A stretch of 64,000 nt of DNA from Alphaproteobacteria bacterium (GTDB lineage Bacteria > Pseudomonadota > Alphaproteobacteria > UBA6615). The translations under genes were made by a program, and so were the position numbers. Location of the stretch: contig JBDXCV010000013.1 in the NCBI GenBank assembly GCA_039980135.1, positions 124,001 through 188,000 on the forward strand, given 5' to 3'. Under the pieces are notes generated by a model that worked only from the letters and a program-made list of their open reading frames with translations, did no database searches and was not told where the DNA came from. Positions 4,110 through 53,008 of the stretch are shown here, piece by piece. Each line of letters starts with the position of its first letter. Position 1 is the first letter of the stretch.

Positions 4110-5096
4110 TCAAAGTCCGAACAGCCTCCGCGCGGTGCCGGCCTTGATGGCCTTCACCTGATCGGCGGGCAGGCGGTCGACGACGGCATAGAGCTTCTCG
4201 ACGTCGGCGGACATGGGGAGATCGGTACCGAACATCACGTTGCCGGGCCCGGATGTCTCAATGCACAGATCGAGGGCGCCGGGATTGTAGACGACCGAAT
4301 CAAACCAGATGTCTTCAAGATAGCGGCTCGGCGGACGATCTATGTTTCCCTCGATCAGGGTCTCCCGGTCGAAGAGCATGTCGATGCGGCCCGCGACATA
4401 GGGCAGGAAGCCGCCACCATGGGCGGCAATGAGTTTCAGCCGCGTATGGCGATCCAGAAAACCGTCGAGGATCATGCGGGCGATACACAAGGTGGTATCG
4501 AACATGAATCCGACACCCGGCATCAGAATTCGCTCGCGCGAAAACTCGGCCTCCTTCGCACCGAACGGTGCCGTCGGATGGACCAGGACCGGCAACGCAT
4601 GGCGGTCAATCGCATTCCAGACCGGCTCGAAAAGCGGGTCCACCAGATGGCGCCCGCCGATCGTGGCCATCACCATCACGCCGACCGCACCCTGTTTGAC
4701 GGCGCGGTCGAGTTCGGCGACGGCCAGATCAGGATACTCCCATGGGAGGGTGGCGAGCCAGCGTATCCGGTCCGGGTAGGCCGTCTGGGCGGCGGCCTGG
4801 CTGTCATTGACCAGCACCGCGGCCTTGCTGCTGATGGCCTCCCCGCCCCAGAAAACCCCCGGGGAGCTCAGCGAGATAATCGCGAGGTCGATGCCGAATT
4901 GATCCATCTGGTGGATTTTGGCCTCGTAGTCGAACGCCTCGGGCCGCAGCGCGACGGCGGGGACGCCTTTTTCGACCAGATATTCCCGACCGTCCGGCAT
5001 CCGCCGGGTGCCATAGTCGGGCGCACCGCTTTCGCCGAGCAAATCCAGATAGGCTTGGCCGAAGGCATGGGTATGAATGTCGATGACGGTCGCCAC
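4110..5096 (-). CDS. amidohydrolase, ACMSD-like
   Basis: A 328-residue amidohydrolase of the PF04909 group, which includes aminocarboxymuconate-semialdehyde decarboxylase and related decarboxylases and hydrolases. The metal site is complete in appearance: HTH at residues 8-10, VLVHPTAPF in mid-protein, IAAHGGGFLPY, and FGTDLP near the C-terminus supplying the aspartate. There is no signal peptide, so it is cytoplasmic. The gene sits between uvrA and ssb, which are divergent neighbours in many bacteria, and reads in the uvrA direction with a 174-base gap. Its natural substrate is unknown; a role in aromatic or tryptophan-type catabolism is possible but inferred only from the family. Confidence 0.8.
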   Translation of the reverse strand: MATVIDIHTHAFGQAYLDLLGESGAPDYGTRRMPDGREYLVEKGVPAVALRPEAFDYEAKIHQMDQFGIDLAIISLSSPGVFWGGEAISSKAAVLVNDSQAAAQTAYPDRIRWLATLPWEYPDLAVAELDRAVKQGAVGVMVMATIGGRHLVDPLFEPVWNAIDRHALPVLVHPTAPFGAKEAEFSRERILMPGVGFMFDTTLCIARMILDGFLDRHTRLKLIAAHGGGFLPYVAGRIDMLFDRETLIEGNIDRPPSRYLEDIWFDSVVYNPGALDLCIETSGPGNVMFGTDLPMSADVEKLYAVVDRLPADQVKAIKAGTARRLFGL

Positions 5097-5220
5097 GTAC
5101 TATTCCGCTCTTCCGCTGATTGAGCTTTCGTCGACTTTGCCTCCAATGGGGACTTTTGACGACAATTATTCCCGTTCCCAGGCGCAGTTCAGCGTGAAAT
5201 ACACGGCCTGATGGACATGA

Positions 5221-5235
5221 GAACAAAACATGAAT
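5221..5235. promoter_or_regulatory. candidate LexA (SOS) box upstream of ssb
   Basis: The sequence GAAC-AAAACAT-GAAT matches the alphaproteobacterial SOS box GAAC-N7-GAAC at seven of eight conserved positions and has the A-rich spacer often seen in such boxes. It lies 138 bases before ssb and 124 bases before the start of the leftward amidohydrolase-uvrA pair, so it could serve either or both units. Confidence 0.45.
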
Positions 5236-5373
5236 ATCATGGGGATAACTCCCCGTCCAGACCGCTTGTGGGGCAGTTGGCCCCATGCCAGTGTGAGCGT
5301 GGATTTGCGCCCCGAGTCGCAGCCTTTTCAGGGCGCATGATGATCGATTCCCAAGTCTCAGGAGACACAACCC

Positions 5374-5850
5374 ATGTCAGGCAGCGTCAACAAAGTCATT
5401 CTCGTCGGAAATCTGGGCCGCGACCCGGAAATTCGCTCCATGCAGTCCGGCGACAAGGTGTGCAACCTGTCCGTCGCCACGTCGGAACGCTGGAAGGACC
5501 GCAATTCCGGTGAGATGCAGGAAAAGACCGAGTGGCATCGGGTGGTGGTCTTCGATCAGAAGCTGGTCGAGGTGGCCGAGAAGTATCTCCAGAAGGGCGC
5601 CAAGGTGTTCCTCGAAGGCCAGCTCCAGACCCGGAAATGGACCGACCAGTCGGGCCAGGACAAGTACACGACCGAGGTGGTGCTGCAGCGCTTTCGCGGC
5701 GAGATGGTCATGCTCGACAGCCGTGGTGGTGGCGGTGGTGGTGGCGGATACGATGCCCCGCCACCCCATGAGCAGCAGCCAGCGATGGCCGGCGGCGGCG
5801 GTGGCGGCATGGGCGGCGGCGACGACCTGGACGACGAAATCCCGTTCTAG
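5374..5850 (+). CDS. ssb: single-stranded DNA-binding protein
   Basis: SSB coats single-stranded DNA during replication, recombination and repair and recruits partner proteins through its acidic tip. It has 158 residues. The N-terminal OB fold begins [18 protein letters not shown] and spans roughly residues 1-110. A very glycine-rich linker follows (runs of Gly around residues 115-150), ending in the canonical acidic C-terminal peptide DDLDDEIPF. The start follows AGGAGA about seven bases upstream. A candidate LexA site upstream suggests damage induction. The next gene begins 14 bases downstream and may be co-transcribed. Confidence 0.98.
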
Positions 5851-5864
5851 GCCGAGCACACGCC

Positions 5865-6281
5865 GTGACTGACGACATGCCGAGCATCCTTTCGCACGTT
5901 TCGATCGGCACCAACGATTTTGACCGTGCGGTGACATTCTACGATCAGGTCCTGACGACGCTGGGTTGCCGCCGTGTGCTTGAACATGACGGCATGGTTG
6001 CCTGGGGCAGGGCGTTCCCGGAGTTTTTCGTGCAGGCGCCCCACGACGGCGCATCCGCGAGTGTCGGCAATGGGACCCATATCGGCTTCATCGCCCCCGA
6101 CAAGGCGTCGGTGGATGAATTTCATGCGACGGCAATCGCCGCCGGCGCGCAGGACGACGGCACTCCGGGGCCGCGCCCCGCGTATGGAGCGCCTTACTAC
6201 GGGTGCTTTATCCGCGATCCCGATGGCCACAAGATCGAGGCAACGTTCTGGGACTTGAGCCTCGAATCAGCGGCAGAATAA
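5865..6281 (+). CDS. VOC family (glyoxalase-fold) protein
   Basis: A 138-residue single-domain vicinal-oxygen-chelate protein. Family marks are HVSIGTNDFDRAVTFYD at the start, GTHIGFIAPD in the middle and FIRDPDGHKIEATFWD at the end. These supply two histidines and a glutamate in positions usual for metal binding. VOC members include glyoxalase I, fosfomycin-resistance proteins and dioxygenases, and the reaction cannot be assigned here. A GTG at 5865 opens the frame; an ATG at 5877 (MPSILSHVS) is an equally possible start because neither has a clear ribosome binding site. It lies 14 bases after ssb, on the same strand. Confidence 0.8.
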   Translation: MTDDMPSILSHVSIGTNDFDRAVTFYDQVLTTLGCRRVLEHDGMVAWGRAFPEFFVQAPHDGASASVGNGTHIGFIAPDKASVDEFHATAIAAGAQDDGTPGPRPAYGAPYYGCFIRDPDGHKIEATFWDLSLESAAE

Positions 6282-6446
6282 AGCGGATTCTGTGCGGCGA
6301 CTCGTCCCGGAAACACGACGTTCAGGAACCCCCGCATTCCTTGCCCGAATCCCCTGTTTCAGGTAGTCTCTGATGATGAAAATGCACCCGATTCGGCTTG
6401 CTCGAAATTACATTAATTTCGCGCCGTACAGCGTTGATAAAACATC

Positions 6447-9320
6447 ATGAGTGATCAATCGGCAGAGCTTCCGCCGGACGGTTTCGATATCGCGCCGGTG
6501 ACCATCGAGGACGAGATGAAGTCCTCGTATCTCGATTATGCCATGAGCGTCATCGTATCCCGTGCGCTGCCCGATGTGCGAGACGGGCTGAAACCGGTTC
6601 ACAGGCGCATCCTGTATTCGATGAAGGAGTCCGGTTTCGAGTACAACCGGCCCTATCGTAAGTCCGCCCGCATCGTCGGCGAGGTCATGGGTAAATATCA
6701 CCCCCATGGCGACAGCGCGATCTACGACGCCATGGTGCGCATGGCCCAGGATTTCTCCATGCGCCTGGAACTGATCGACGGCCAGGGCAATTTCGGTTCC
6801 ATGGACGGCGACCGTGCCGCAGCCATGCGTTACACCGAGGCACGCATGTCGAAGGCGGCGCACTCGCTGATCGAGGATATCGACCGGGAAACCGTCGATT
6901 TCCAGCCGAACTACGACGAGACCGTCAACGAACCCGTCGTCCTGCCGGCCCAGTATCCCAATCTGCTGGTCAACGGCGCCGGCGGCATCGCCGTGGGCAT
7001 GGCAACCAACATCCCGCCCCACAATCTGGGCGAGGTCATCGACGCCTGCTGCATGTATATCGACAACCCGGCGACGACGATCGACGAAATGCTCGAGGTC
7101 ATGCACGGGCCGGATTTCCCGACCGGCGGCATCATTCTGGGGACCAGCGGCATTCGTGCGGCCTTCAATACCGGGCGTGGATCGGTGGTGATCCGCGCCA
7201 GGACGGCGTTTGAAGAGGTCCGCGCCGGGCGGAACGCCATCATCGTCACGGAAATTCCCTATCAGGTGAACAAGTCGCGGATGATCGAGCGGATCGCGGA
7301 GGTCGCCCACGAGAAGATCATCGAGGGCATCGCCGACTTGCGCGACGAGAGCGACCGTGACGGGGTTCGGGTCGTGATCGAACTGAAACGCGACGCTGAG
7401 CCCGAAGTCGTGCTCAACCAGCTGTTCCGCTACACCCAGCTGCAGACCTCGTTCGGGGTGAACATGCTGGCGCTGAATGGCGGCCGGCCGGAACTCCTCA
7501 ACGTCAAGGAGATCATCGCCGCCTTCGTTGCCTTCCGCGAAGAGGTCATTACCCGGCGCACGATCTACGAGCTCGGCCGGGCACGGGACAGAGCTCATAC
7601 GCTGGTCGGCCTGGCCGTCGCGGTGGCCAATCTGGACCCGGTGATCGAGCTGATCCGTGCCGCCAAGGATGCCGCGGATGCCCGCGAACAACTTTGCGCC
7701 AGGATGTGGCCGGCCAAAGAAGTCGCACCGCTGATTGCGCTGATCGACGAACCGGGCCGGGAAGTGGACGAGAAGGGCAATTATCAGCTCTCCGAGGAGC
7801 AAGCCAAGGCGATCCTCGAACTGCGCCTGCACCGCCTGACGGGACTGGAACGCGACAAGATCGCCAACGACCTGAAGGAGCTGGTCGAACGGATCAAGGA
7901 GTATCTCTCGATCCTCGACGACCGCCAGAAACTTTACGGCATCCTGCGTGATGAGCTGATGGCCATGCGCGAGGAATTTGCCGATCCGCGTCGCTCCGAA
8001 ATCATCGAGGGCGAGTTCGAGCAGGATCTGGAAGCCCTTATTCAGCGCGAGGACATGGTCGTCACCGTGACCCACAACGGCTACATCCAGCGGGTGCCGC
8101 TCTCGACTTACCGGGAGCAGAAGCGCGGCGGCAAAGGCCGGGCGGGGATGAAGGCCCGCGATGAGGATTTCGTGGATTCCGTCTTCGTGCTCAACACCCA
8201 CACGCCGGTGCTGTTCTTCTCGTCCCGCGGCATGGTCTACAAGACCAAGGTCTACAATCTGCCGGTCGGAACGCCCCAGGGCCGCGGCAAGGCGCTGGTC
8301 AATGTGCTGCCGCTCGAGGAAGACGAGACCATCACCACTCTGATGCCGCTGCCCGAGGACGAGTCCGAGGCCGAGAACCTGTTCGTGATGTTCGCGACCG
8401 TGTCGGGCAACGTGCGGCGCAACCGGCTGTCGGATTTCGTGCAGGTCAAATCCAACGGCAAGATCGCCATGAAGCTCGATGAGGGTGACCAACTCGTCGG
8501 CGTACAGCCTTGCGAGGACACCGATCATGTCCTGCTGGCAACGTCCAAAGCGAAGTCGATCCGATTCGAGGCGACCGACGTGCGCGTATTTGCCGGGCGG
8601 AACTCGACAGGCGTGCGCGGCATCCGGCTGGGCGAGGGGGACGAAGTGATCTCCATGTCGATCCTGTCCCACGCCGAGTTCTCCGTCGAGGAACGCGAGG
8701 CGTATCTCAAGCGCAGCCGCGCGGAACGGGCCGAGGCGGATAGCGACGAGGCCGAGACGGCATCCGGCCCGGCGGCAGCAGCGCAAACGAACGAAGCCGA
8801 AACCGCCACCGAAACAGGCGATGCCATCGAATTGTCCGATGAACGCTACGCCGAACTGGCCGAACAGGAGCAGTTTATCCTCTCGGTCACGGCCAATGGC
8901 TTCGGCAAGCGCACATCGGCCTATGAATACCGGATCACCAACCGGGGCGGGCAGGGCGTGGTCAATATCACGCTGTCCGACGTCAAGGATAATGCCGTCG
9001 TGGCGTCATTCCCGGTCGAGGAGGATACCCAGCTCGTCATGGTTACGGACGGCGGCCAGCTCATCCGCACGGGCGTCGGCGATGTGCGAATCGCCGGGCG
9101 CTCGACCCGCGGAGTCACCCTGTTCCGGGTCGCCGACGACGAACGGGTTGTGACCGTCGCCCATTTGCGCGACGATGATGAGGATGAAGACGCCGAAAAC
9201 GGCGCGGAAACGGGGAGCGGGACGCCAGAGGACGAGAATGTTGCGGAAACGGGCGAAGACAGCCCCGATGCCGACAGCAGCGAAGAGACGGCGCTCGAGG
9301 ACGAAAATGGCGAAGACTGA
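6447..9320 (+). CDS. gyrA: DNA gyrase subunit A
   Basis: GyrA, the DNA-cleaving subunit of the type II topoisomerase that introduces negative supercoils. The catalytic tyrosine is Y129 in [10 protein letters not shown]. The quinolone-resistance region reads [10 protein letters not shown] with Ser90 and Asp94, the sensitive-type residues. The C-terminal domain carries a GyrA box in the form QKRGGKG. At 957 residues it is longer than E. coli GyrA (875), because of an Ala/Glu-rich insertion inside the C-terminal beta-pinwheel (about residues 750-795) and a long acidic tail rich in Asp and Glu. These features distinguish it from ParC. The 3' end overlaps coaD by 14 bases, so the two are translationally close. 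Confidence 0.97.
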
Positions 9321-39348: not shown

Positions 39349-41148
<1,800 letters not shown>

Positions 41149-41152
41149 TCTG

Positions 41153-41172
41153 CGAGCATGAGATGCGAACCT
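41153..41172 (+). repeat. imperfect direct repeat, copy 1
   Basis: Begins CGAGCATGA and ends GCGAACCT, starting five bases after the recQ stop. A second copy lies 19 bases further on. It marks the left edge of the low-GC region. Confidence 0.4.
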
Positions 41173-41191
41173 GCCGCCGTTCGAAACGGAC

Positions 41192-41214
41192 CGAGCATGA
41201 CGGGAATCGAACCT
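41192..41214 (+). repeat. imperfect direct repeat, copy 2, T-arm-like
   Basis: Begins CGAGCATGA, identical to copy 1 for nine bases, and ends TCGAACCT after a three-base longer centre. The centre GGGAATCGAACC resembles the T-arm stretch GGGATTCGAACC of the tRNA-Ser at the other end of the island, read on the same strand. Confidence 0.35.
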
Positions 41215-41280
41215 CACCAAGATCAAGCATCTTTGTATATTGCTACTGTAACGTGCGGCTAATGAGGCACCATCGAACAT

Positions 41281-44200
41281 ATGATTGAAAGAACTTTTCA
41301 ACATATTTCCAAAGAAAGTCTCGACGAGGCAGATCAGCAGTCCTTTTTGGAAAGCCTAGGATGGTCAAAATCCACGACTTGGCAAGAGCTACTGCAGTCA
41401 CGGCGGATTCTGATGATTTCAGAGGCCGGAGCAGGAAAGACATACGAATGCCGAGAACAGGCGCGTCTGCTGTCTGAGTCAGGACAACCCGCATTTTTCG
41501 TCGAACTGGCTACCTTAGCTAGAGATAGCATGCGGGACTCGCTTACGACGGAAGAAGAGCAACAGCTTGATACTTGGCTCTTTTCACAATCTGAAACAGC
41601 AACGTTTTTCCTCGATTCCGTCGACGAACTAAACCTGAGTTTGGGTTCCTTCGAACATGCCCTAAAGCGATTCAGAAAGACTATCTGTGACCAACTTCAT
41701 CGAGCTCGGATCGTGATAACTACGCGCCCGATTCCGCTCGACGAACAGTTAGTCCGCCGTGTTCTTCCGGTCCCTCCAACTGTTGCCTCGAAAGCCAACG
41801 GGGAAACATTCGCGAAAATCGCGATGCAAAATATTGGCGGGAAGCATGGTGCGGAAGACAAGGCCGCCACGGCGTCCGACTGGCAAATTGTCGGATTGAT
41901 GCCGCTTTCCGACGAGCAAATTATTGAATTTTCGAGGCTTCAGGGAGTGGACGAGCCAGCTCAACTCTTGATCGACCTAGAGCAACGAAATGCTCAAGAG
42001 TTTGCACGTCGACCACAGGATCTAATTGAGCTTTGCGCCGACTGGAGAGATCAAAGGCGAATTCGCACGCATTCTGATCAGGTCGCAACAAACATCCGCA
42101 TCAAACTCAAACCAAGTGAGGATAGACCAGAACCAGCTGAGCTATCAGTTGAAAAAGCAGAACAAGGTGCCCGCCGAATCGCACTCGCCATGCAGCTGAC
42201 ACGTCTCACGAATATTAAACATAACGCCGCGTCAGATCACCTTACTGACGATTCCGCACTTGACCCCTCGACCATACTGGCGGACTGGAATCAAAATGAA
42301 AGAAGGGCTCTGTTAGAGCGTCCTCTGTTCGGGTTTGCGTCCTATGGTCGCGTGCGTTTTCACCACCGTTCTGTCGCTGAGTATCTGGCAGCGGAACGGC
42401 TTCTGGAACTTTTTCTCTCGGGACAAATGCCCCTAAGCTCGCTGAAGCGGCTACTTTTCGCAGAAACCAAGGGTGTGACAATAGTCCGCCCTTCGAAAAG
42501 ACCTATTGCAGCTTGGGTGGCGTTGAGGGCAAAGGAGATATTTGAGCTTTTGCGCGACCATGAACCCACCATTCTACTGAATGAGGGTGACCCTGAATCT
42601 CTAACTCCAATACAGCGAAGCCAAGCCCTAGAGGCCTATGCAACTCGATATGGATCAGGAGGGTGGCGTGGGCTGACCGTACCCGACATCCAAATTCATC
42701 GCTTTGCTTCTCCCGACCTAGCAAAGACAATCACCGGCATCTGGGGCAGTGACGTCGAGAATCCAGAAGTACGAAAGGTCCTCCTTGATATTATTGGAGC
42801 AGGATCCATCACCGAGTGCTCTGATATTCTCTACCACGTCGCATGTGATCCAGAATCGTCGCCGATGGAACGAATGGTTGCGCTCGATGGATTGTTGACG
42901 AGTGACCACGCAAGAACACTCGATATCGCTTCCGACATAGCCAATGCTGATCCCAATTGGAGCGAACGAGTCTCCAGAAGCGCAGTCATACGTCTGTTTC
43001 CAGAGCACATGTCGATAGAGCAACTGTGCCAAGCGCTGGGACGACTAAAATTTGGGAAGCGGAGTGTTGATGGCCTGACTTGGGAACTACCCCGCAAGAT
43101 TGCGGCTTCAGAATTTGATTTACCCAAACTAGAAGCACTGCGTGACGGATTGACAGGAGTGATTTCGCCTAGTCTGGCGTGGTCAAAAGAATGGCCGCAT
43201 TTCGAGAGTGAGCATCAAAGTTTGTGCCATGCATTGGCTGCAACTTGTGTGCTTGGACTGAAAATAAGCAGGAAACTCGAATGGCTCCAGGCCAGCGTTT
43301 TGGCTTTGCGTTTGCACACTTCCGACCAACGCTCCGAAGGGGAAATAAAGACACTTCGAGAATTGGTGCTTTCGCTGCCTGCCGAAGATAACTCGCGCCT
43401 GTTTTGGGCTGCAGATGCCCTAGTTAGGTCTCTCCACGAAATAGACGACCCATGGATGCGTCTTGCGGAAGTCACGATGCATGACAGCGCTACTGAGTTA
43501 AAAGCTGACCGCGACATCGAGTGGATCAAAGCGGCACTGAGCGATCCAAGCCTCGACCAAAGTGATCGAGCGCTGCTCCTGGAAGCTGCGCTACGCATGC
43601 CTAGCGACCGGGACGCTTGGAAGCGGAAGCAACATGCGAAGGAATTGGAGTCTTTAGTAGCAGACGTCCCCGATTTGGTTGTGAGGATTAAGGAGTGGAT
43701 AAAGCCAACACCCGACATGCAAAAAATCCAAGAAATGGAAAGAAAGCATGCCGAACGTAAGGAACAACAGGAACGGGAAAAGGAGAACGACTACGCAAGT
43801 TGGAGAAAATTTTGGCAGGAAGTCGTCGATCATCCAGAAAATGTCTTCTCTACCCGAAGAAGAGAGGCGACGGCGTGGAATCTCTGGCGCGCCATGAGCC
43901 CCGAGGGTGACAACAGCCGAAAATCTGGCTGGAATCGAACATTCATCGAAGAACAATTCAGCCGAAAAATTGCTGATCAGCTACGTCACACGCTTATGAG
44001 CATTTGGCGCAATGACCATCCTACGCTTGCTAGCGAACGTCCTGAGCAAGAGCGCAACGTTTATCAAGTCCGCTGGCAATTGGGGCTAGCCGCAATATAT
44101 GCCGAAACGGAGGATCCCGAGTGGGCAATCAAACTTGATGAGCATGAAGCGAAATTGGCCATACGATTTGCACTGGTTGAACCCGGCAGCCTTCCTTCTT

Positions 44201-45591
44201 GGATGGAGGCACTTGTCGAACAACATCCAAACGCAGTTGAAGAAATTTTAGGAAAAGAACTGTCTTGGGAGCTCAATCAGGCACCTGGCCCACACGGAAT
44301 TTCGAATGTACTCCAAGCGATTGAACATTCCCCACAATCGGTGGCACGAGTTTTTCTGACACGCCTTCAATTATGGCTCGATGCGAAGAATGATTACTTG
44401 GAAAAAAGGGGCGACATAGCGGCTTTTGCCCAGCGAGTTCAGCGTGTCTGCAGAATGATCCTTACTCACGGCAATGAGGAAGAACTATCGAGATTGCTTG
44501 AAACAACTCAAGCACATCTCGAGATCAAATTGCCGACTGAGTTGCGACAAGTGTGGTTGCCAATTCTGATGAACCTAGACCCCGGCTTGGGTGTGGCTGC
44601 TCTAGAAAGACAATTCGAATCGATAGAGCCAGGAGAATGGACAGAAGCTGTTGAATGGCTAGCCAATTTATTTGGGGATCATCACAACACGATTGACTTG
44701 AATAACGGTCACTTCACACCCGATCTGCTGCTGAAGTTGGTCCGATTAGCCTACAAGCATGTGCGAACCAAGGACGATGTCTCCCATGACGGCGGGTATA
44801 CACCCGATATGAGAGATCACGCAGAGCTTGCTCGGTCGAACATTGTAAGAGCGCTACTCAACGTGACAGGTGAAACAGGTTTGGCAGCAAAGCTTGAGAT
44901 GGCTGACGACCCTCTTTGCGCACACTTTCGAGATCGAATTCTCGCGGTGGCTGACGAAAGTTGGGCGCAAGAGATTGACTCAGATGTACTCAATGAAACG
45001 CAGGCAGCGGCTCTTGATCGTAGAGGAGAAACGCCAGTTACGACAAATGAATCGATGTTTGTCGTCATGAAAGATCGGCTATCTGATCTTAGCGAACTTC
45101 TTTTGCATGACGATTCACCGAGGGAAGCTTGGGCAGCAGTTTCAAATGAAAAGGTCATGCGCAGGCAGATTTCTCGAGAACTAAAAAATTCAGCCAAAGG
45201 CATTTATAGAGTCGATCAGGAGGCGGTTACAGCTGACGAAAAAGAAACGGACATTCGTCTCCGCTCGACCGAGTCTCAATATGAAGCGGTAATCGAACTA
45301 AAGCTGGCTGACGAACGATCTGCACGCGATCTCCGAGACACCATTAAAATCCAGCTGGTCAATAAATACATGGCATCAAACGATTGCAGATCAGGTGCTC
45401 TTCTTGTGACACTCGCTAAGGACCGTAGGTGGAAACATCCAGAAACGGGCAAGCGAATCGGCCCAGACAAACTCATCGCCCTATTGCAGACCGAAGCTGA
45501 ACGAGTTGAGCGTTATTTGAGTGGAGCCGTCTCGCTACATGTGGAGTTTCTTGATTTGCGACCGCGACTGCCGCTTGAAAAGAACTCATAG
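41281..45591 (+). CDS. NACHT/STAND NTPase with C-terminal PD-(D/E)XK nuclease-like domain
   Basis: A 1436-residue protein, probably a single-gene anti-phage system. Residues 1-40 are a short lead. The NACHT-type NTPase shows Walker A SEAGAGKT (47-54), Walker B FFLDSVDEL (109-117, Asp112, Asp115-Glu116), sensor-1-like IVITTRP (144-150) and the winged-helix motif VRFHHRSVAEYLAAE (358-372). Residues about 380-1260 are alpha-helical and repeat-like, with a highly charged coil near 812-840; this is the likely sensor. The C-terminus (about 1270-1430) has ETDIRLR, EAVIELKLAD and IQLVNKYM, giving Asp1324, Glu1339, Lys1341 and Gln1358, the pattern of PD-(D/E)XK nucleases. Base composition is clearly lower in GC than the flanks (single 60-base lines of about 38-53 percent counted by hand, against 65 percent in a recQ-flank line). 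GAGG lies 13 bases before the ATG. No partner gene is present. Known of the family: STAND proteins oligomerise on sensing phage proteins and then activate an effector. Confidence 0.8.
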   Translation: MIERTFQHISKESLDEADQQSFLESLGWSKSTTWQELLQSRRILMISEAGAGKTYECREQARLLSESGQPAFFVELATLARDSMRDSLTTEEEQQLDTWLFSQSETATFFLDSVDELNLSLGSFEHALKRFRKTICDQLHRARIVITTRPIPLDEQLVRRVLPVPPTVASKANGETFAKIAMQNIGGKHGAEDKAATASDWQIVGLMPLSDEQIIEFSRLQGVDEPAQLLIDLEQRNAQEFARRPQDLIELCADWRDQRRIRTHSDQVATNIRIKLKPSEDRPEPAELSVEKAEQGARRIALAMQLTRLTNIKHNAASDHLTDDSALDPSTILADWNQNERRALLERPLFGFASYGRVRFHHRSVAEYLAAERLLELFLSGQMPLSSLKRLLFAETKGVTIVRPSKRPIAAWVALRAKEIFELLRDHEPTILLNEGDPESLTPIQRSQALEAYATRYGSGGWRGLTVPDIQIHRFASPDLAKTITGIWGSDVENPEVRKVLLDIIGAGSITECSDILYHVACDPESSPMERMVALDGLLTSDHARTLDIASDIANADPNWSERVSRSAVIRLFPEHMSIEQLCQALGRLKFGKRSVDGLTWELPRKIAASEFDLPKLEALRDGLTGVISPSLAWSKEWPHFESEHQSLCHALAATCVLGLKISRKLEWLQASVLALRLHTSDQRSEGEIKTLRELVLSLPAEDNSRLFWAADALVRSLHEIDDPWMRLAEVTMHDSATELKADRDIEWIKAALSDPSLDQSDRALLLEAALRMPSDRDAWKRKQHAKELESLVADVPDLVVRIKEWIKPTPDMQKIQEMERKHAERKEQQEREKENDYASWRKFWQEVVDHPENVFSTRRREATAWNLWRAMSPEGDNSRKSGWNRTFIEEQFSRKIADQLRHTLMSIWRNDHPTLASERPEQERNVYQVRWQLGLAAIYAETEDPEWAIKLDEHEAKLAIRFALVEPGSLPSWMEALVEQHPNAVEEILGKELSWELNQAPGPHGISNVLQAIEHSPQSVARVFLTRLQLWLDAKNDYLEKRGDIAAFAQRVQRVCRMILTHGNEEELSRLLETTQAHLEIKLPTELRQVWLPILMNLDPGLGVAALERQFESIEPGEWTEAVEWLANLFGDHHNTIDLNNGHFTPDLLLKLVRLAYKHVRTKDDVSHDGGYTPDMRDHAELARSNIVRALLNVTGETGLAAKLEMADDPLCAHFRDRILAVADESWAQEIDSDVLNETQAAALDRRGETPVTTNESMFVVMKDRLSDLSELLLHDDSPREAWAAVSNEKVMRRQISRELKNSAKGIYRVDQEAVTADEKETDIRLRSTESQYEAVIELKLADERSARDLRDTIKIQLVNKYMASNDCRSGALLVTLAKDRRWKHPETGKRIGPDKLIALLQTEAERVERYLSGAVSLHVEFLDLRPRLPLEKNS

Positions 45592-45602
45592 GAACCAATA
45601 GC

Positions 45603-45622
45603 TTCCCCAATAGGTTAGGGAA
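45603..45622. terminator. hairpin between the STAND gene and tRNA-Ser
   Basis: TTCCCCAA and TTAGGGAA form an 8-bp stem with one mismatch and a TAGG loop. It lies between the STAND gene end and the tRNA-Ser 3' end and could terminate either transcript, but there is no good U tract. Confidence 0.3.
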
Positions 45623-45625
45623 AAG

Positions 45626-45715
45626 TGGCGGAGGGGGTGGGATTCGAACCCACGAGACGCTTGCACGCCTGCCAGTTTTCAAGACTGGTGCCTTCAACCA
45701 CTCGGCCACCCCTCC
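45626..45715 (-). tRNA. tRNA-Ser(TGA)
   Basis: A 90-base class II tRNA on the minus strand. Acceptor GGAGGGG pairs with CCCCTCC, then discriminator G and encoded CCA. The anticodon stem CCAGT/ACTGG encloses CTTGAAA with TGA at 45681-45679. There is a long variable arm, and the T arm has GGTTCGAATCC. The 3' end faces the STAND gene, the usual orientation for an integration site. Confidence 0.96.
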
Positions 45716-45769
45716 GTGCGGCATCCGGATAGCACCCGGCAGCCGAGTTTGGAACGCCGTTCTTGCGTT

Positions 45770-46891
45770 CTAGTCCGACGACCGGCCGAGCCGGCGCGGC
45801 TGTTCCGAACGCGCGGCGAAGCGCAGGTCATCAACGAGCCGCCGCACGTCGCGAATCTGGAACAGCACGCGGCTCATGGAGTGGCGCAGTTCGAGCGCCG
45901 AATCCTGGTTCCGCAGGGCGACCGTGATATCGCTCTCGATCTCGGTAATCGGCGCGCGTAAATCATCACCGATCTCGTCGAGCACATGGCGACGTCTGGA
46001 TTCGAGCTCTATCAACGCCCCGTGAGTCTGACGCAATTCACGCGTCTGTTCCGCGACAGTGACCTCGAGTTGCGAGCGTGTCACCATCGTGTCGCGGAGA
46101 TTTTCTGCCATTTCGTCAAATGCCTGCGCCAACTCACCCAGTTCATCGGAGCGGCGCGATGCAAGCTCGACCTCAAAATTACCGGTACTGATGGATTGAG
46201 CCACACGTGCGAGGTCACGTACCGGGCGGCTCATGCGCCCCGCCAGAATTGCGGCAGCGATACCGGCCAGCACCAGTGCGACCAGCCCGATCAAGGCGAG
46301 GATCAGCGCCAGTTCCTGCAGTGCCGCGTCGGATACCTTTGTCAGTTCGGTGCGCATCGCGGATATTTCGGCACCGATATAGCGGGCATCGAAATTGACG
46401 GCGATCACACCAAACACATAGCCGTCGGCGACGATCGGTTCGACGACCCGGAAGTCGAACGCATCGATATCGAGCAGCATGTGTCCACTGTTCAACGTGG
46501 CAAGAACATCCGCCGGCGCGGCATCGCCGAAACTCGGCAATTTCTGGGACCCGTCGTGAAAGACCGTGCCGTCACGCCCGAAGACCATGACCGCGCGCAC
46601 ATCCTCGCGTTCCACGAGCGGCCGAATGATATTCCCGACACTCTGGATATCCTCGGCGAATAGCGGCTCGAGCAGTCGGTCAGCCGTTGTTCTGGCCGAT
46701 AAAACAGCCTGATTGCGCGCATTCTCGGAGAGAACGGTGTCGAGCCGTTCCAGGTTTTCAAGCTCGAACGCAGCCACAATCCGATCAATCGCGGTCCGCT
46801 GTGCCACCAGCGTGGCAACAGTTACCGCGGCCACAAGCGTGACCAGGGTCAGTACGTATTTGGTGCGAAGCCTGAATTGCATAATCCCCAT
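45770..46891 (-). CDS. degenerate membrane histidine kinase lacking the ATPase domain
   Basis: A 373-residue inner-membrane protein. It has a first membrane helix (about 12-29), a periplasmic sensor of about 160 residues with a Cache/PAS-like pattern (VRAVMVFGRDGTVFHDG, FGVIAVNFDARYIG), a second helix (about 194-217), a HAMP domain (SRPVRDLARVAQSISTGNFEVEL) and a coiled coil. A HisKA-like segment follows (about 295-360). Its H-box reads EIGDDLRAPITEIE: the phospho-acceptor histidine is Asp309. The protein ends right after this segment with no HATPase domain. It cannot be an ordinary kinase and may instead be a dimerising signal transmitter or a truncated remnant. It overlaps the preceding binding-protein gene by three bases, so it is coupled to it. 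Confidence 0.82.
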   Translation of the reverse strand: MGIMQFRLRTKYVLTLVTLVAAVTVATLVAQRTAIDRIVAAFELENLERLDTVLSENARNQAVLSARTTADRLLEPLFAEDIQSVGNIIRPLVEREDVRAVMVFGRDGTVFHDGSQKLPSFGDAAPADVLATLNSGHMLLDIDAFDFRVVEPIVADGYVFGVIAVNFDARYIGAEISAMRTELTKVSDAALQELALILALIGLVALVLAGIAAAILAGRMSRPVRDLARVAQSISTGNFEVELASRRSDELGELAQAFDEMAENLRDTMVTRSQLEVTVAEQTRELRQTHGALIELESRRRHVLDEIGDDLRAPITEIESDITVALRNQDSALELRHSMSRVLFQIRDVRRLVDDLRFAARSEQPRRLGRSSD

Positions 46892-47859
46892 CAGCCTCCA
46901 TGCCGGGATTGAACGGCTTTGCGAATATGTTCGAGACGATTCCGGGATTCAGCATCGACCACGGCATATCGGCCGACTTCGAAGTATCGGTCCAGCACCA
47001 CTTTCCCCGCCTCATCCTCATGCATTTCGAGCAGAACCTCCATCAGTTTCGATTTGAGGGCCGGGTCCATGGAGCGACGCAGCAGCAGGACGGAGCGGGG
47101 GACCCATTGGGTGAGATGGAACACCCGGAGCTGTGGCTTGAAGCGCGCCGTCATTACTTCCGGGTCATCGAGATCCGTCTCACTGATGGCCCCAACATCT
47201 GCGCGGCCCCGAATAACCGAACCAACGACATTCACTTCCGATTTCGCGAATGCGTAGCGAACCGCACCGGGGGCCGGACTGCTCTGTTCAACCGGAGCCA
47301 GGTCGAGGCCGGCATCCATGATTTCGAGATAGGGCAGGAAAAATCCTGATGTCGAACCAGCGTCTTCGAACGCCAGCGTCCGCCCCCGCAAGTCCGCCAG
47401 GCTATGAATATCGCTATCGACACGAACAATAAGGGCTGTGCGATATCGCTGAATATTGCGCTTCCATTCCAGCAGGGCGATTTCCATCGCACCGGTATTT
47501 ACCAGCCGCGACGCCGTAAAAACCGTTTCCGAAATCACATCGATTTCACCACGTCCCGCCTTGGCAATAAGGCTCTGCGGATTGGCATCGAGAACGACAT
47601 TAGTGCCGGTCGGTCCATACGCCGCCAGCCGTTGCGCCAGATACCCTCCAAACGCCGCCAGGCGACCGGCATGTTTTCGCGGGTTCCCCGAAACACGGCC
47701 AATCGTCAGCGTCGTCCGTTCCGGTGTTGTGATCTCCTCGCGGTCGGCGGCCCACGAATCCGAAGGCGCTGACATTGCGACGCCAAGCACCAGAACCGGC
47801 GCAAGGAAAGCCAATATCAGGAACGGTCGCCTCGGGAGGGCAGGACATCTGTGAATCAT
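46891..47859 (-). CDS. periplasmic PhnD-like substrate-binding protein
   Basis: A 322-residue exported binding protein of the PhnD/SsuA/transferrin-like class. A signal peptide (FLILAFLAPVLVLGVAMSAP ending near SWAAD) precedes a two-lobed domain with LTIGRVSGNPRKHAGRLAAFGGYLA, GRGEIDVISETVFTASRLV and LRGRTLAFEDAGSTSGFFLPYLEI, the last being the typical PhnD ligand-loop pattern. No ABC permease or ATPase gene lies nearby. Its stop overlaps the start of the degenerate sensor kinase, so it more likely presents a ligand (phosphonate, phosphite or another oxyanion) to that receptor than feeds a transporter. Confidence 0.82.
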   Translation of the reverse strand: MIHRCPALPRRPFLILAFLAPVLVLGVAMSAPSDSWAADREEITTPERTTLTIGRVSGNPRKHAGRLAAFGGYLAQRLAAYGPTGTNVVLDANPQSLIAKAGRGEIDVISETVFTASRLVNTGAMEIALLEWKRNIQRYRTALIVRVDSDIHSLADLRGRTLAFEDAGSTSGFFLPYLEIMDAGLDLAPVEQSSPAPGAVRYAFAKSEVNVVGSVIRGRADVGAISETDLDDPEVMTARFKPQLRVFHLTQWVPRSVLLLRRSMDPALKSKLMEVLLEMHEDEAGKVVLDRYFEVGRYAVVDAESRNRLEHIRKAVQSRHGG

Positions 47860-48017
47860 TCAATGCCACCGTGACGTTACAGCAACCACCTTGTGGTCAC
47901 GACGAAATCTCAACACAGAATATTTCGCATGAATGCAGACTGAATCGCCATTCATGTTGCCAACGGGGCAATGGCTGCCGATATTGCCTTTGACCGCCAC
48001 CACACAGGCTGAAAACG

Positions 48018-48854
48018 ATGCCAGACGAAGCACCCAAGGAAATCATGAGTGTCCGGGCTGACGTGAAGTACATGATCGATACCGGAGAGAAGCGGTTGAT
48101 CTATATCCCGTCCGAAGCGGGGCAGGACAATTCGAAATGGGCCGGACGTTATGAAGACCGGCAGGTCGAGATACGCAACGCGCGCGTCGATCCTTCGACA
48201 TTCAGCCTCGATACGGCCGGCTTCGCGGTCGCGCCGCAGACGAGCGCCGTGACCGATTTCTACGACGACGCGCAGATCGCCGGCGTGTACGAGCCCGAGG
48301 TTGAGGCGTTTCTGCGGCAACTGACCGGCGCCGCACGCGTGCATATTTTCGATCACACGCGCCGCGCCGATTCGGAATCCATGCGCACGGAGAAAATTGT
48401 GCGCGAACCGGCGGGCGTCATTCACAACGACTACACCCAGGCGTCGGCCGAGAAGCGGGTCCGGGACCTGTTCCCCGAGGACGAGGCCGAGGACCTGTTG
48501 TCGCGCCGGTTCGCGATCGTCAATCTGTGGCGCAGTTCCAACAATGCGCCGATCGAAACGGCACCGCTGGCCCTGTGCGATGCACGCAGCGTCGTTGAAG
48601 GCGACCTCGTCACGGTCGAACGCCATTCCAAGGACCGGATCGGGGAAGTCCAGCAGGTGGTTTTCAATCCCGATCACCAATGGTTCTACTACCCGCAGCT
48701 TCGGCCTGACGAGACTTTGCTCATCAAGACCTATGATTCCGTGACGGACGGACGTGCGCGATTCTCCGTCCACACCGCCTTCGAAGACCCGTCGGCACGG
48801 CCTGATGCACCGCCACGCGAAAGCATCGAGACGCGGGCGTTCCTGTTTTTCTAA
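48018..48854 (+). CDS. CmcJ/NvfI family oxidoreductase-like protein
   Basis: A 278-residue protein matching the CmcJ/NvfI family, which includes CmcJ from cephamycin 7-alpha-methoxylation and fungal oxygenase-like enzymes. Marks are VHIFDHTRRADSE, the conserved GVIHNDYTQASAEKRVRDL, IVNLWRSSNNAPIETAPLALCD and the C-terminal YYPQLRPDETLLIKTYDS and FSVHTAFEDPSA. The two histidines and aspartate in these motifs could bind iron. The substrate is unknown and no antibiotic cluster is present. The 158-base gap on its left separates it from the divergent binding-protein gene. Confidence 0.82.
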   Translation: MPDEAPKEIMSVRADVKYMIDTGEKRLIYIPSEAGQDNSKWAGRYEDRQVEIRNARVDPSTFSLDTAGFAVAPQTSAVTDFYDDAQIAGVYEPEVEAFLRQLTGAARVHIFDHTRRADSESMRTEKIVREPAGVIHNDYTQASAEKRVRDLFPEDEAEDLLSRRFAIVNLWRSSNNAPIETAPLALCDARSVVEGDLVTVERHSKDRIGEVQQVVFNPDHQWFYYPQLRPDETLLIKTYDSVTDGRARFSVHTAFEDPSARPDAPPRESIETRAFLFF

Positions 48855-48891
48855 TCAGTACGATCAGATACGACGGTCGAACGTCCGGAGA

Positions 48892-49254
48892 TTATTCAGC
48901 TGCCACGTGACGCAGGTCACGCTTCAACACCAGGTCCTGCAGCACGTCGAATGCGTTGCCCGGGAGTTCGGTGAACTCGCCGCTGAACCGGGCGTCCTCG
49001 ATCTCGACACTGGTGATGTTGACCAGAATCAACACGTCACGACCCCGGTAGTCGGTAAAACGCAACTCGGCCAACTGGTCTAATTCGGGCCAGATGGTGT
49101 CTTTTGTCACCTGCCTGGCGCCGTCGGCACCGAAGCCCGACAATCCGATGTCCAGAATCCGAACGGGCTCATCATTGAGAGTGGCCTCAATGAGAATCTC
49201 CCGGCGCCGGTCGCGGCGGCGTTCATTGGTGTATCCGACAATTCGCGTGGACAT
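48892..49254 (-). CDS. PilZ-domain protein
   Basis: A 120-residue protein consisting of a PilZ domain, which usually binds cyclic di-GMP. The arginine cluster NERRRDRRREILIEA supplies the RxxxR element, and ILDIGLSGFGADG supplies the D/NxSxxG element. It is a stand-alone adaptor, with no attached catalytic domain. Such proteins regulate motility, pili or polysaccharide production. It converges with the CmcJ-like gene and is divergent from the flavin monooxygenase gene. Confidence 0.82.
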   Translation of the reverse strand: MSTRIVGYTNERRRDRRREILIEATLNDEPVRILDIGLSGFGADGARQVTKDTIWPELDQLAELRFTDYRGRDVLILVNITSVEIEDARFSGEFTELPGNAFDVLQDLVLKRDLRHVAAE

Positions 49255-49408
49255 TTTTTACCCATATTCTCTAACGCAGTACGCCACGTTCGCCGATTTA
49301 CCTTAACCAAAGCTGAACGGACCGCCGCCGCGACAAAGCCGGCGTGACAACCCGACGGGCCTCGGCCATAAACGTACGATCACCCCGCAGGCGTTCGAGG
49401 CATTCACG

Positions 49409-50650
49409 TTGGTCAAAGTCATCGTCCAGATGTATCCGGTCATGCCGACCGCATCCGAGGCCGAACGGATGGCGCTGCGCCCCATCGGGCGGGACGCGGA
49501 GCTGTTCCAGAAGACCCTGCGCGGCTGGTGCGACATCGTGGAGGCGGCTGACAAACTCGGCCTCTGGGGTGTCACCGCCATCGAGCATCACTTTCATTCC
49601 GAGGGGTACGAGGTCAGTCCCAACCCGGGCGTGATGAACGCGTTCTGGGGTGCGCGGACGGAGAATATCCGCGTGGGCCAGCTCGGCTATGTGATGAGCG
49701 CGCAGAACCCGATCCGGGTGGCCGAGGAAACCGCGATGCTCGACCATTTGACCGAGGGGCGCTGCTTTGTGGGTTTCTCGCGGGGGTTTCAGTCCCGCTG
49801 GACCGACGTTCTCGGCCAACATCTGGGCACCCGCGCGACCCTGTCCGACGGCGGTGAGAATGACCAAATGAACCGCGAGATCTTCGAAGATGCCGTCGAC
49901 ATTGTGCTCAAGGCCTGGACGCAGGAAAGCATCGAGCATCATTCCGCACGCTGGCAAATTCCGTTTCCGCACGATACGGGGGTCGAGGACTGGCCCATGG
50001 CATCCTGGACGGAGAAGCTCGGCGCCGAGGGCGAAATCGGCCCGGACGGCGAGGTGCGCCGGGTCAGTGTCGTTCCAGCGCCTTTAACCAAGCCCCACCC
50101 GCCGGTCTTCGTCGCCTCGAATGCGAGCCGGGAAACGGTGGAGTATGCCGGCAAGCATGGTTTTATCCCGGCGTATTTTTCGCATATGGACAAGGTGGCG
50201 GATTTCGGCCCGGCGTATGTCGAGACCGCCCGACAGGCCGGGCATGACTTCGCGCTCGGCCAGAACCAGGCCATCGTGCGCATGCCGCGTATCGCCGACA
50301 CCATGGCCGACGCACGCCAGGCGGTCGCCGACTACGACGGCATGATCTACAAGCATTTCTACGAGAACTTCCTGCCCGCCGGGATGCGCGCGAAGGCCAA
50401 CGTCCAGCCGGATACGCCATTGGCAGACCTCGTCGATCCCATGATCGACACGGGGCTTTTCGTGCCGGGGACCGCGAGCCAGGTGCGCGACCATTTCGTT
50501 GAACAGTGGAAGCACCTGCCGGCGGAATACGTGATCCTGATCTATCACTACGCCCAGCAACCCAGGGACAGCGTGATCGAAAACCTCAAGCTGTTCATGG
50601 AAGAGGTGAAGCCCGCGCTGGACGAACTCACACCCTATATAGACGATTGA
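49409..50650 (+). CDS. LLM-class flavin-dependent monooxygenase
   Basis: A 413-residue luciferase-like monooxygenase (PF00296), a TIM-barrel enzyme that uses reduced flavin from a separate reductase. Typical stretches are KLGLWGVTAIEHHFHSEGY, ENIRVGQLGYVMSAQNPIRVAEETAMLDHLTEGR and VGFSRGFQSRW, then KPHPPVFVASNASRETVEYAGKHGF. The only in-frame start near the family N-terminus is TTG at 49409, with GAGG eight bases before it. The substrate is unknown. It converges with the formamidase-like gene across four bases. Confidence 0.87.
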   Translation: MVKVIVQMYPVMPTASEAERMALRPIGRDAELFQKTLRGWCDIVEAADKLGLWGVTAIEHHFHSEGYEVSPNPGVMNAFWGARTENIRVGQLGYVMSAQNPIRVAEETAMLDHLTEGRCFVGFSRGFQSRWTDVLGQHLGTRATLSDGGENDQMNREIFEDAVDIVLKAWTQESIEHHSARWQIPFPHDTGVEDWPMASWTEKLGAEGEIGPDGEVRRVSVVPAPLTKPHPPVFVASNASRETVEYAGKHGFIPAYFSHMDKVADFGPAYVETARQAGHDFALGQNQAIVRMPRIADTMADARQAVADYDGMIYKHFYENFLPAGMRAKANVQPDTPLADLVDPMIDTGLFVPGTASQVRDHFVEQWKHLPAEYVILIYHYAQQPRDSVIENLKLFMEEVKPALDELTPYIDD

Positions 50651-50654
50651 CCGC

Positions 50655-51626
50655 CTAGAGCCGCTTGCCCGCCGCGTCCGCGGCCCCGTGCAGCGCCGCC
50701 TTGGGCAGCATCACATGGCAGCCCTTGTTGATGTTCACCAGCTGCGAGACGCGCACGTCGGCCGCGAGGCTGCACAGCGAGTAGGCGTCCTCCGCCGACA
50801 GGTTGGTACGCTCCCGGATCAGGACGATCATGTCCCGCAGGCCCTGCTTGGCCGCATCATCGAGGTCCTGGTCGATTCCGATGGTGATGTAGTGGGTGTC
50901 GGTCTCGGCCCGCGGCATCTTCCAGGAGATGTCCTTGCGGACATGAAACTCGAAGGTCCCGATCAGCGCGGTCTCCGCCGCCGACAGGCAGCTCTCGCCA
51001 TCGCCCTGAAGCGCGTGGCCGTCGCCGGTCTGGAAGTTCGCGCCGGGCACATGGACCGGCAGGTACAAGGTCGCACCGGCTCCGAGTTCCTTGATGTCGA
51101 GGTTGCCGCCATGGGGCTGGGGGACGATGGAGGTTATCGTGCCCCATTCCGGCGGCGGCGAGACGCCCATCACGCCGAAGAAGGCGTTGCACGGCAGGTC
51201 CACACCCCAGGGCAGTTTCGCGACATGAGCCTCGCGGTCGAGGGGGATGTTGAGCACGCGTTTTTTATGGAAATCCTCCGGCAACGAACCTTTGAGCGGC
51301 ATGATCATGTTCCACGCCCAGTCCTGGCGCAGCGCGACGTCGATGATCCGCACTTCGAGCACATCGCCAGGTTCCGCGCCCCGCACCGCGACCGGGCCGG
51401 TCATGATGTGGCCGGGCAGGATCGGCTTGTTGTCGGCGATGAAGGCCGCATGGTCAGGCAACAGACTGTCGGCGACTTCGGGCGGAACCTGATCCGGCCC
51501 GCCGGAGATCGTCTCAATGATGACCCGGTCGCCGGGATCAACTTCGAGGACGGCCTCGAAATCTGCTGAAAACGCGCCCCAGCGGAGATTCTCCGGCTTC
51601 GATTCCAGTCGATGTTCTTTGCCCAT
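50655..51626 (-). CDS. acetamidase/formamidase family protein
   Basis: A 323-residue member of the FmdA/AmdA family (PF03069), which hydrolyses formamide or acetamide to ammonia and acid. Visible family stretches are LPGHIMTGPVAVRGAEPGDVLEVRI, PPPEWGTITSIVPQPHGGNLDIKEL, GATLYLPVHVPGANFQTGDGHALQGDGE and ETALIGTFEFHV. It is cytoplasmic. GGGGGA precedes the ATG. The SDR gene lies 65 bases upstream on the same strand, so the two may be co-transcribed. Confidence 0.87.
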   Translation of the reverse strand: MGKEHRLESKPENLRWGAFSADFEAVLEVDPGDRVIIETISGGPDQVPPEVADSLLPDHAAFIADNKPILPGHIMTGPVAVRGAEPGDVLEVRIIDVALRQDWAWNMIMPLKGSLPEDFHKKRVLNIPLDREAHVAKLPWGVDLPCNAFFGVMGVSPPPEWGTITSIVPQPHGGNLDIKELGAGATLYLPVHVPGANFQTGDGHALQGDGESCLSAAETALIGTFEFHVRKDISWKMPRAETDTHYITIGIDQDLDDAAKQGLRDMIVLIRERTNLSAEDAYSLCSLAADVRVSQLVNINKGCHVMLPKAALHGAADAAGKRL

Positions 51627-51691
51627 GATATTTCCCCCGGTTACTTGTGAACCTGCATTGTGTCGGTGTGCCGGGGCAGGGGCAAGCTCTG

Positions 51692-52456
51692 CTACATGGC
51701 GGAGATGCCGCCGTCGAGCACCAGTTCCGAGCCCGTCATGAAACGGCTTTCGTCCGATGCCAGATAAACCACCGCGTAGGCGACATCGTCGGCGTCCGCA
51801 ACAATCCCGAGCGGAATCTGGCGGGCCAGCCGGTCGAGGCCTTCCTCGCGGGTCCCGCGTTTGAGGATATTGTCGAGGATGGGCGTATCCACGAAGGCAG
51901 GATGCACCGAGTTGCAGCGCACCTGATTGCCCTCACGCGCGCAATGCAGCGCCACGGATTTGGTGAGATGGCGGACTCCGGCCTTCGCCGAGTTGTAGGC
52001 GGCGAGGTTGTGCCCGGCGATGATCCCGGAAATCGACGAGATATTGACGATCGAACCGCCGCCCGACGCGGCGATGTGCCGGATCGCGTATTTGCAGCCG
52101 AGGAACACGCTGTCGAGATCCAGTGAATGGAGCCATTTCCAGTCCTCGAAGGACGTCTCCTCCACCGTACCGCCGATCGCCGTTCCGGCGCAGTTGACCA
52201 GCACATGCAGGCCGCCAAACGCCGCGACGACCGTATCCAACGCCATCGTCCAGGCGATTTCATCCGTGACGTCATGGGCAATCGCGATGGCGTTCTCGCC
52301 GATCTCGTCGGCGACGTCGCGTGCGCCGTCCAGATTGATATCCGATACGGCGACCCGCGCGCCCTGGTTCGCCAGCATGATGGCCGATGCGCGCCCGATC
52401 CCGGATGCGCCACCCGTTACCAGCGCGATTTTCCCGCCGACCCGTTCCAAATCCAA
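51692..52456 (-). CDS. short-chain dehydrogenase/reductase
   Basis: A 254-residue classical SDR. The cofactor motif is TGGASGIG near residue 15, DIN after strand 2 (SDINLDGARD) suggests NAD preference, and NCAG is the structural motif. Catalytic Ser lies in NISSISGIIAG and the YxxxK pair in YNSAKAGV. The C-terminal MTGSELVLDGGISAM is usual. It oxidises an alcohol or reduces a ketone of unknown identity. It lies upstream of the formamidase-like gene on the same strand and is divergent from the acetyltransferase gene. Confidence 0.9.
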   Translation of the reverse strand: MDLERVGGKIALVTGGASGIGRASAIMLANQGARVAVSDINLDGARDVADEIGENAIAIAHDVTDEIAWTMALDTVVAAFGGLHVLVNCAGTAIGGTVEETSFEDWKWLHSLDLDSVFLGCKYAIRHIAASGGGSIVNISSISGIIAGHNLAAYNSAKAGVRHLTKSVALHCAREGNQVRCNSVHPAFVDTPILDNILKRGTREEGLDRLARQIPLGIVADADDVAYAVVYLASDESRFMTGSELVLDGGISAM

Positions 52457-52501
52457 AACCCTCCGCTAGACTGAACGCATGAAGGCGCATGGACCCGATC
52501 A

Positions 52502-53008
52502 ATGCAACCGCTGACCACGGATCGGCTCGAATTGCGGCCGTTTCAAATCGAAGACACGGCAGCGGCGTTCGGGTTCTTTGCCGACCCCGAGGTGATGCGT
52601 TTCAGCCTCAATGGCCCCCACAGCTCACGCAAGACGACCGAAGATTTCATCGTCGCGAACATCAACCGGCAGGACCGGCTGGGTTTCTCCATCTGGGCCG
52701 TCATCGAATCTTCGAGCAACGATCTCATCGGCATGTGCGGGTTGGCCGAATTCGGACACGGCGTCCCCGGCATCGAACTCGCCTATCGCCTGCGCCGCGA
52801 CCGCTGGGGCCGGGGTTACGCGACCGAGGCCGGGCGGGCCACGGTCGACCACGCATTCGGCCCGCTCGGGCTGGACCGCCTGATCGCCGCCGTCGAGCGC
52901 GCGAACGCGCCGTCGATCCATGTGCTGATGAAGTGCGGGTTCACGTTCGTCGAAGACCGGGACATCGCCGGCAAGGACGCACTGGTGTACGCGCAGACAC
53001 GGGATTGA
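52502..53008 (+). CDS. GNAT family N-acetyltransferase
   Basis: A 168-residue RimJ/RimL-type GNAT enzyme. TDRLELRPFQIEDTAAAFGFFADPEVMRF opens the fold. GIELAYRLRRDRWGRGYATEAGRATVDHAF contains the acetyl-CoA pyrophosphate-binding motif (R/Q-x-x-G-x-G/A as RWGRGYA). LDRLIAAVERANAPSIHVLMKCGF is motif B. Such enzymes acetylate protein N-termini or small amines; the substrate is unknown. It converges with the persulfide dioxygenase gene. Confidence 0.88.
   Translation: MQPLTTDRLELRPFQIEDTAAAFGFFADPEVMRFSLNGPHSSRKTTEDFIVANINRQDRLGFSIWAVIESSSNDLIGMCGLAEFGHGVPGIELAYRLRRDRWGRGYATEAGRATVDHAFGPLGLDRLIAAVERANAPSIHVLMKCGFTFVEDRDIAGKDALVYAQTRD

Follow-up and report, generated by a model that had tools for sequence, protein, structure and literature searches.

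What can a membrane sensor signal when it carries an aspartate at the position where a histidine kinase has its phospho-acceptor histidine and stops before any ATPase domain? The question is raised by two adjoining genes in a stretch of 64,000 nucleotides from an Alphaproteobacteria bacterium (contig JBDXCV010000013.1, positions 124,001 to 188,000), called the window below. An earlier note on this DNA took the two genes for a sensory pair that signals by a non-canonical route, or for a decaying receptor. The pair and the two genes that frame it are as follows.

46891–47859, minus strand: PhnD/XAC2383-like periplasmic binding protein, 322 aa (PF12974, E 2.3e-35; 5ub3, E 5.3e-43)
45770–46891, minus strand: membrane sensor, 373 aa from Met1, with Met4 at 46882 as an alternative start
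46796–46864, minus strand: predicted first transmembrane helix, about residues 10–32 (by eye, and a helix in the structure model)
46319–46795, minus strand: predicted periplasmic Cache/PAS-like domain, about residues 33–191 (structure model, with high local pLDDT at 51–170)
46250–46318, minus strand: predicted second transmembrane helix, about residues 192–214 (by eye, and a helix in the structure model)
46091–46246, minus strand: HAMP domain, residues 216–267 (PF00672, E 3.4e-16)
45794–45994, minus strand: histidine-less DHp hairpin, residues 300–366 (profile, model and alignment)
45965–45967, minus strand: codon of Asp309, at the position of the phospho-acceptor His (alignment)
45626–45715, minus strand: tRNA-Ser(TGA), directly downstream of the sensor; syntenic anchor outside the pair
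48018–48854, plus strand: divergent CmcJ/NvfI-family oxidoreductase gene; the other syntenic anchor, outside the pair

The binding protein and its surroundings

The reading frame of the binding protein and its PhnD-like character, both given in the earlier note, were borne out by a domain-profile match to Phosphonate-bd (PF12974). A hydrophobic, export-signal-like stretch was seen by eye at the N-terminus. The top solved-structure match by sequence was 5ub3, which a table in PMC10942540 names as XAC2383 of Xanthomonas. A structure model of the binding protein reached a mean pLDDT of only 37.1 and was set aside as unusable. XAC2383, the solved structure nearest to the window binding protein by sequence, is a signalling binding protein; it reportedly has a preference for ligands that contain phosphate and contacts the Cache domain of XAC2382. 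By analogy, the ligand of the window binding protein is probably a small anion. The window pair resembles XAC2383-XAC2382 in that a PF12974 binding protein is encoded beside a Cache-HAMP membrane receptor, whereas its output is a bare histidine-less DHp and not an enzyme.

A PhnD-fold binding protein is likewise encoded with a kinase-type membrane sensor in the arsenic-sensing systems AioX-AioS, ArrX and ArxX (PMC5908839). The window pair shares this combination of genes; unlike those systems, it has no Cys in the mature binding protein, no kinase output and no adjacent regulator gene that could be seen by eye. The sole Cys of the binding protein, Cys5, belongs to the signal-like stretch at the N-terminus, and the AioX-type Cys106 of the ligand pocket has no counterpart in the window protein. 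The binding proteins of two other genomes of the family (G004 and G010) have no Cys at all. AioX-type arsenic sensing was therefore rejected, since a mature protein without Cys is unlikely to bind arsenite in this manner.

The two genes overlap by one base (TGATG) if the first ATG of the sensor is used. By eye, the N-termini of its relatives fit a start at Met4 better, and with that start there is no overlap; the three bases of overlap described earlier are thus reduced to one at most. The tRNA-Ser gene begins 54 bases past the sensor stop codon, so that no ATPase domain lies beyond the sensor. Reading the open reading frames of positions 40000–53000 by eye showed no gene for an ABC transporter or a response regulator beside the pair, in agreement with the earlier note. 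Coupling to a neighbouring transporter was rejected, because none was seen nearby and a separate locus is present elsewhere in the genome. This locus (L213, G000:C1:49000-59000, positions 2015–7249) holds a gene for a second PF12974 protein together with ATPase-like and permease-like genes, as judged by eye, and a gene for a 638-aa histidine kinase lies divergent to it.

Two observations concern the flanks. Positions 41281–45591 of the plus strand encode the NACHT antiphage protein HyoA (NF058534, 1498.6 bits against a cut-off of 1200), and the gene is flanked by recQ (identified by eye) and tRNA-Ser(TGA). Different genes occupy the place between recQ and the tRNA in the family genomes G021 and G004, which marks it as a variable slot beside a tRNA. 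On the other flank, the CmcJ/NvfI-family oxidoreductases are a multi-copy group: at E up to 1e-40 the own genome gave 6 matches and each family genome as many as 6, and 22 of the 24 family genomes had at least one.

Anatomy of the sensor

The modelled periplasmic domain of the sensor had the sensor domains of CitA, WalK and DcuS as structural matches. The model was built from 4 sequences, with a mean pLDDT of 72.2 and values below 50 across much of HAMP, and only the Cache domain and a helical hairpin modelled at the C-terminus were taken from it. The HAMP domain, already recognised in the earlier note, matched its Pfam profile. At E up to 1, neither the window sensor nor its two close relatives (from genomes G008 and G004) gave a HATPase match. 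Pfam HisKA (PF00512) did not match the sensor either, by hmmscan at E up to 1 or in a scan of the whole genome, which detected 29 HisKA domains elsewhere.

A profile built from the C-terminal 105 residues of the three sensors in the family (the C-terminal profile) matched 10 of 386 class genomes, two of which carry the short form. In the 8 class genomes outside the family, the matches fell on the DHp of full-length kinases (E 8.1e-14 to 6.3e-7). The HisKA-like segment proposed earlier was thus supported by the DHp of true kinases, although PF00512 itself does not recognise it.

The three short sensors were then aligned with 11 full-length kinases. At the position of Asp309, all 11 kinases have His and all three short sensors have Asp, as the earlier note had supposed for the H-box of the window sensor. 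Asp310 stands opposite Glu in 10 of the 11 kinases and opposite Asp in one. The Thr of the phosphatase motif, present in 11/11 kinases, is Ala313 in the window sensor, and Ala and Glu in its relatives. The short sensors stop at the point where the aligned kinases run on into the CA domain, which agrees with the earlier claim that the protein ends before HATPase. This alignment and the stop at the CA border argue that the C-terminus of the sensor is a complete DHp of HisKA ancestry, with both helices and without the catalytic residues.

In the HExxT/N motif, Thr or Asn four residues after the His serves the phosphatase activity of HisKA kinases; T284A of CovS is a substitution of this Thr (PMC7028121). 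The window sensor lacks a CA domain, the phospho-acceptor His and the Thr or Asn of the phosphatase motif. It is therefore kinase-dead, unable to phosphorylate, and probably phosphatase-dead as well, being most likely unable to dephosphorylate.

Distribution and conservation of the short form

The short sensor was found in 3 of the 24 family genomes at E up to 1e-20, namely the own genome (G000) and two genomes of another genus. The sensors of G008 and G004 are 49% and 47% identical to the window sensor and 369 and 370 aa long, against 373 aa in the window. All three have a DDLR(A/E)PI box with Asp309 and Asp310 and the same C-terminal end, and none has a stop codon inside its frame. A binding-protein gene lies upstream of the sensor in each of the three carriers. 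This gene is intact in G004; in G008 it is frame-shifted at a run of G (L012, about 6690–6700), which points to an assembly error or, if the shift is real, to incipient decay or possibly a slipping tract.

Both genera have the pair at the same site, flanked by tRNA-Ser and by the CmcJ-like gene. Between tRNA-Ser and the sensor, the genomes of the other genus have a glyoxalase/dioxygenase-like gene (L012, 3947–5209; L013, 3740–5017); it is convergent with the sensor gene and ends 0–6 bases from the sensor stop codon, and the G008 copy had NCBIfam matches below the cut-off. In three congeners of the window organism (G021, G022 and G023), the tRNA and the CmcJ-like gene are close together with no pair between them, indicating that the pair is dispensable and that it comes or goes as a unit. 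The remaining three congeners had no sensor match in the family search at E up to 1e-20.

With the full profile, 2 of 385 and 6 of 388 genomes were matched in two class samples, no further short forms were found in these, and the three matched genomes outside the family had full-length kinases. The class samples overlap and are partial, and at most the best 5 candidates per genome were scored, so the short form is likely, not proven, to be rare.

The earlier note held that full-length, His-bearing close homologues would make this copy a truncation. The close homologues proved to be short, with Asp at the H-box, the same two-gene order and a conserved length. Within the family, a full-length homologue with His came from G010: a 517-aa kinase that also has HATPase and is only 22% identical to the window sensor; the binding protein of G010 is 36% identical to that of the window. 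A recent truncation or pseudogene was rejected, since the length, Asp309, the end point and the DHp are kept across two genera at 47–49% identity. The occurrence of a short Asp sensor with an upstream binding-protein gene at the same site in 3/24 family genomes favours the non-canonical sensory pair of the earlier note. Its other suggestion, a decaying receptor, does not suit a sensor whose short Asp form recurs in two genera with the DHp as its most conserved part.

We compared the constraint on the DHp with that on the rest of the sensor. Residues 300–366 are 72% and 67% identical to the G008 and G004 sensors, whereas the periplasmic part is 44% and 42% identical. They also form the most conserved 67-column window of the three sensors, with 41 invariant columns, a number equalled in 13 of 2000 column shuffles, a control that ignores correlation between neighbouring columns. 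In the two comparisons with the window sensor, codons of residues 300–366 differed at second positions by 0.12 and at third positions by 0.60–0.69; because synonymous sites have come close to saturation or passed it, dN/dS values are indicative only.

The control was a set of ordinary kinases, 10 of the 29 HisKA kinases of the own genome, chosen by hand. In 15 ortholog comparisons their DHp exceeded the preceding part by 7 to 36 points of identity. The histidine-less DHp exceeded residues 1–299 by about 24 and 27 points (G008 and G004), which lies inside the range of ordinary kinases, and it thus appears to be constrained like working ones. Such constraint would not be expected of a DHp without function, which argues that this DHp is functional and, judged by its pattern of conservation, kept under selection despite its lost catalytic residues.

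Probable origin of the two halves and possible modes of signalling

The full profile was also run on a phylum sample, where, apart from the own genome, it hit 13 places in 11 of 398 genomes (E up to 1e-20); at 11 of the 13, a binding-protein homologue was encoded just upstream. The outputs of these 11 receptors were GGDEF-EAL in 6 and HisKA-HATPase in 5. Of the other two places, L130 encodes an MCP-domain receptor, with no binding protein found in the flank examined, and L140 was matched through HAMP-DHp only. A further binding-protein-linked kinase, L127, came from a class sample, and the G010 kinase of the family is another. The binding-protein-linked receptors align with about residues 4–268 of the sensor (L138 further).

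From about residues 165–200 to 363–366, the sensor matches the HAMP-DHp of other full-length kinases. Among the 8 kinases with the best-matching DHp, 5 adjoin an OmpR-type regulator-like gene, as judged by eye (L061, L062, L063, L064 and L066). The C-terminal profile, in a local search, found no match in the 29 HisKA kinases of the own genome or in the G010 kinase. A scan of the genome_contigs set gave partial matches only, at 7 loci, with 27–46% identity over the best segments; the matching stretches contain HAMP or adjoin it. The full-length kinases with His that were found are distantly related to the sensor. Since HAMP is common to both sets of relatives, the simplest history would be an output swap at HAMP, followed by loss of the CA domain and the His.

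Receptors of this type pass signals through the second membrane helix and HAMP, and in the XAC2383-XAC2382 type the binding protein is said to contact the Cache domain and to control the output. For the window pair, the binding protein would catch a small, probably anionic ligand and, either loaded or empty, would touch the Cache domain of the sensor. The signal would then cross the membrane in the second helix and reach, by way of HAMP, a dimeric DHp bundle, whose conformation would change with the ligand state and which may control another two-component protein by allostery or docking. The DHp might pair with an intact kinase encoded elsewhere, as the earlier note had proposed and as in RocA-CovS and RetS-GacS, or might bind a response regulator, as in DivL-DivK~P. 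The engine and the key His are missing and the form is nevertheless kept in another genus, so the DHp probably grips other signalling proteins.

We rate at somewhat better than even the chance that the two genes encode a bipartite periplasmic receptor with a kinase-dead DHp as its output, which pairs with, or docks on, another two-component protein. Counting against this reading are the restriction of the short form to three of the genomes searched, the dispensability of the pair, the frameshift in G008 and the absence of a partner from the search that was made. That search covered only kinases with a HisKA match, in G000 (29), G004 (14), G008 (23), G021 (31) and G022 (22 of 23, one weak match being omitted); the G004 assembly consists of 290 contigs. 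Reciprocal best hits in G004 as well as G008, combined with absence from both G021 and G022, were seen for none of the 29 own HisKA kinases. Three (L071, L076 and L083) had such hits in G004 and in G008 but were absent from just one of G021 and G022.

The partner may instead be a response regulator and not a kinase, with Asp309 mimicking a charged phospho-His or blocking catalysis and the ligand setting the amount of regulator held at the membrane. This we regard as a possible but less probable account. The OmpR-type regulator-like genes beside 5 of the 8 kinases noted above favour it, as does the conservation of both DHp helices in the short sensors. A precedent is the His-less DivL, which binds DivK~P and has a conserved patch near the replaced His that is the usual docking surface for regulators (PMC4211667). 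Against it, no response regulator gene was seen by eye beside the pair, and sequence alone separates regulator docking poorly from kinase pairing. A more specific proposal, to which we give a small chance, is that the sensors form a natural, selected family of minimal pseudokinase receptors, in which Asp309 would be a permanent charged mimic of phospho-His and the ligand would gate sequestration or activation of a regulator or kinase, with no phosphoryl chemistry in the receptor itself.

Decay of a histidine-kinase remnant, with the CA domain and the His lost by drift, would fit the frameshifted binding-protein gene of G008 and the missing pair in three congeners. It is largely refuted: sensors from two genera end at the same point, share Asp309 and conserve the DHp, the third-position bias is strong, and none of the three sensor frames contains a stop. 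We hold it to be very improbable. Equally doubtful is the idea that the binding protein works for a PhnD-type ABC transporter whose genes lie at another place in the genome, the short sensor only monitoring transport. The second PF12974 protein, beside ATPase-like and permease-like genes read by eye, would suit such a role, but the locus already comes with a binding protein of its own and, in divergent orientation, a full-length kinase, and the window binding protein is nearer to XAC2383 and has relatives that adjoin receptors. The least credible is a split kinase, in which the sensor DHp would be combined in trans with the CA domain of another protein: the sensor is cut at the border of DHp and CA, as this would require, yet a DHp without His has no phospho-acceptor, and the neighbouring genes, read by eye and, for five of them in the window, compared with protein families, showed none for a free CA domain.

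Several known systems offer parallels to a kinase-dead output that acts on a partner. In DivL, Tyr replaces the His, and kinase activity and the CA domain are reported to be dispensable (PMC4211667). The window sensor likewise has its phospho-acceptor His replaced, but by Asp, and it has Cache-HAMP and a binding protein where DivL has PAS domains and a CA domain. RocA, a kinase-dead sensor that modulates CovS, keeps the DHp His and a CA domain without several catalytic residues (PMC7028121), whereas the window sensor has neither the His nor a CA domain. RetS-GacS is a precedent for a kinase-dead regulator (PMC9491836). ChrS-CAfs arose in laboratory evolution, and its benefit depends on the kinase HrrS; removing the DHp too abolished the gain from the CA deletion, and heterodimers of the truncated ChrS were not shown by two-hybrid assay (PMC9491836). 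The portions available of PMC7028121 and PMC9491836 mention no binding-protein partner for RocA or ChrS-CAfs, whereas the window sensor has one. Literature searches on kinases without His or CA showed no natural DHp-only case among the papers listed, which is weak evidence from a limited library.

On the best reading, the bipartite periplasmic receptor is the known part of this system and a pseudokinase DHp as its only output is the new part. The parts missing from the window sensor are those that usually define histidine kinases. The retention of a stripped DHp in two genera, constrained about like a working one, suggests that the dimerisation bundle alone may be a selected output. The pair would provide a small natural system for asking by what means a pseudokinase that lacks the CA domain, which is still present in DivL and RocA, acts on its partners, and its halves, with their different relatives, show where such receptors may gain new outputs.
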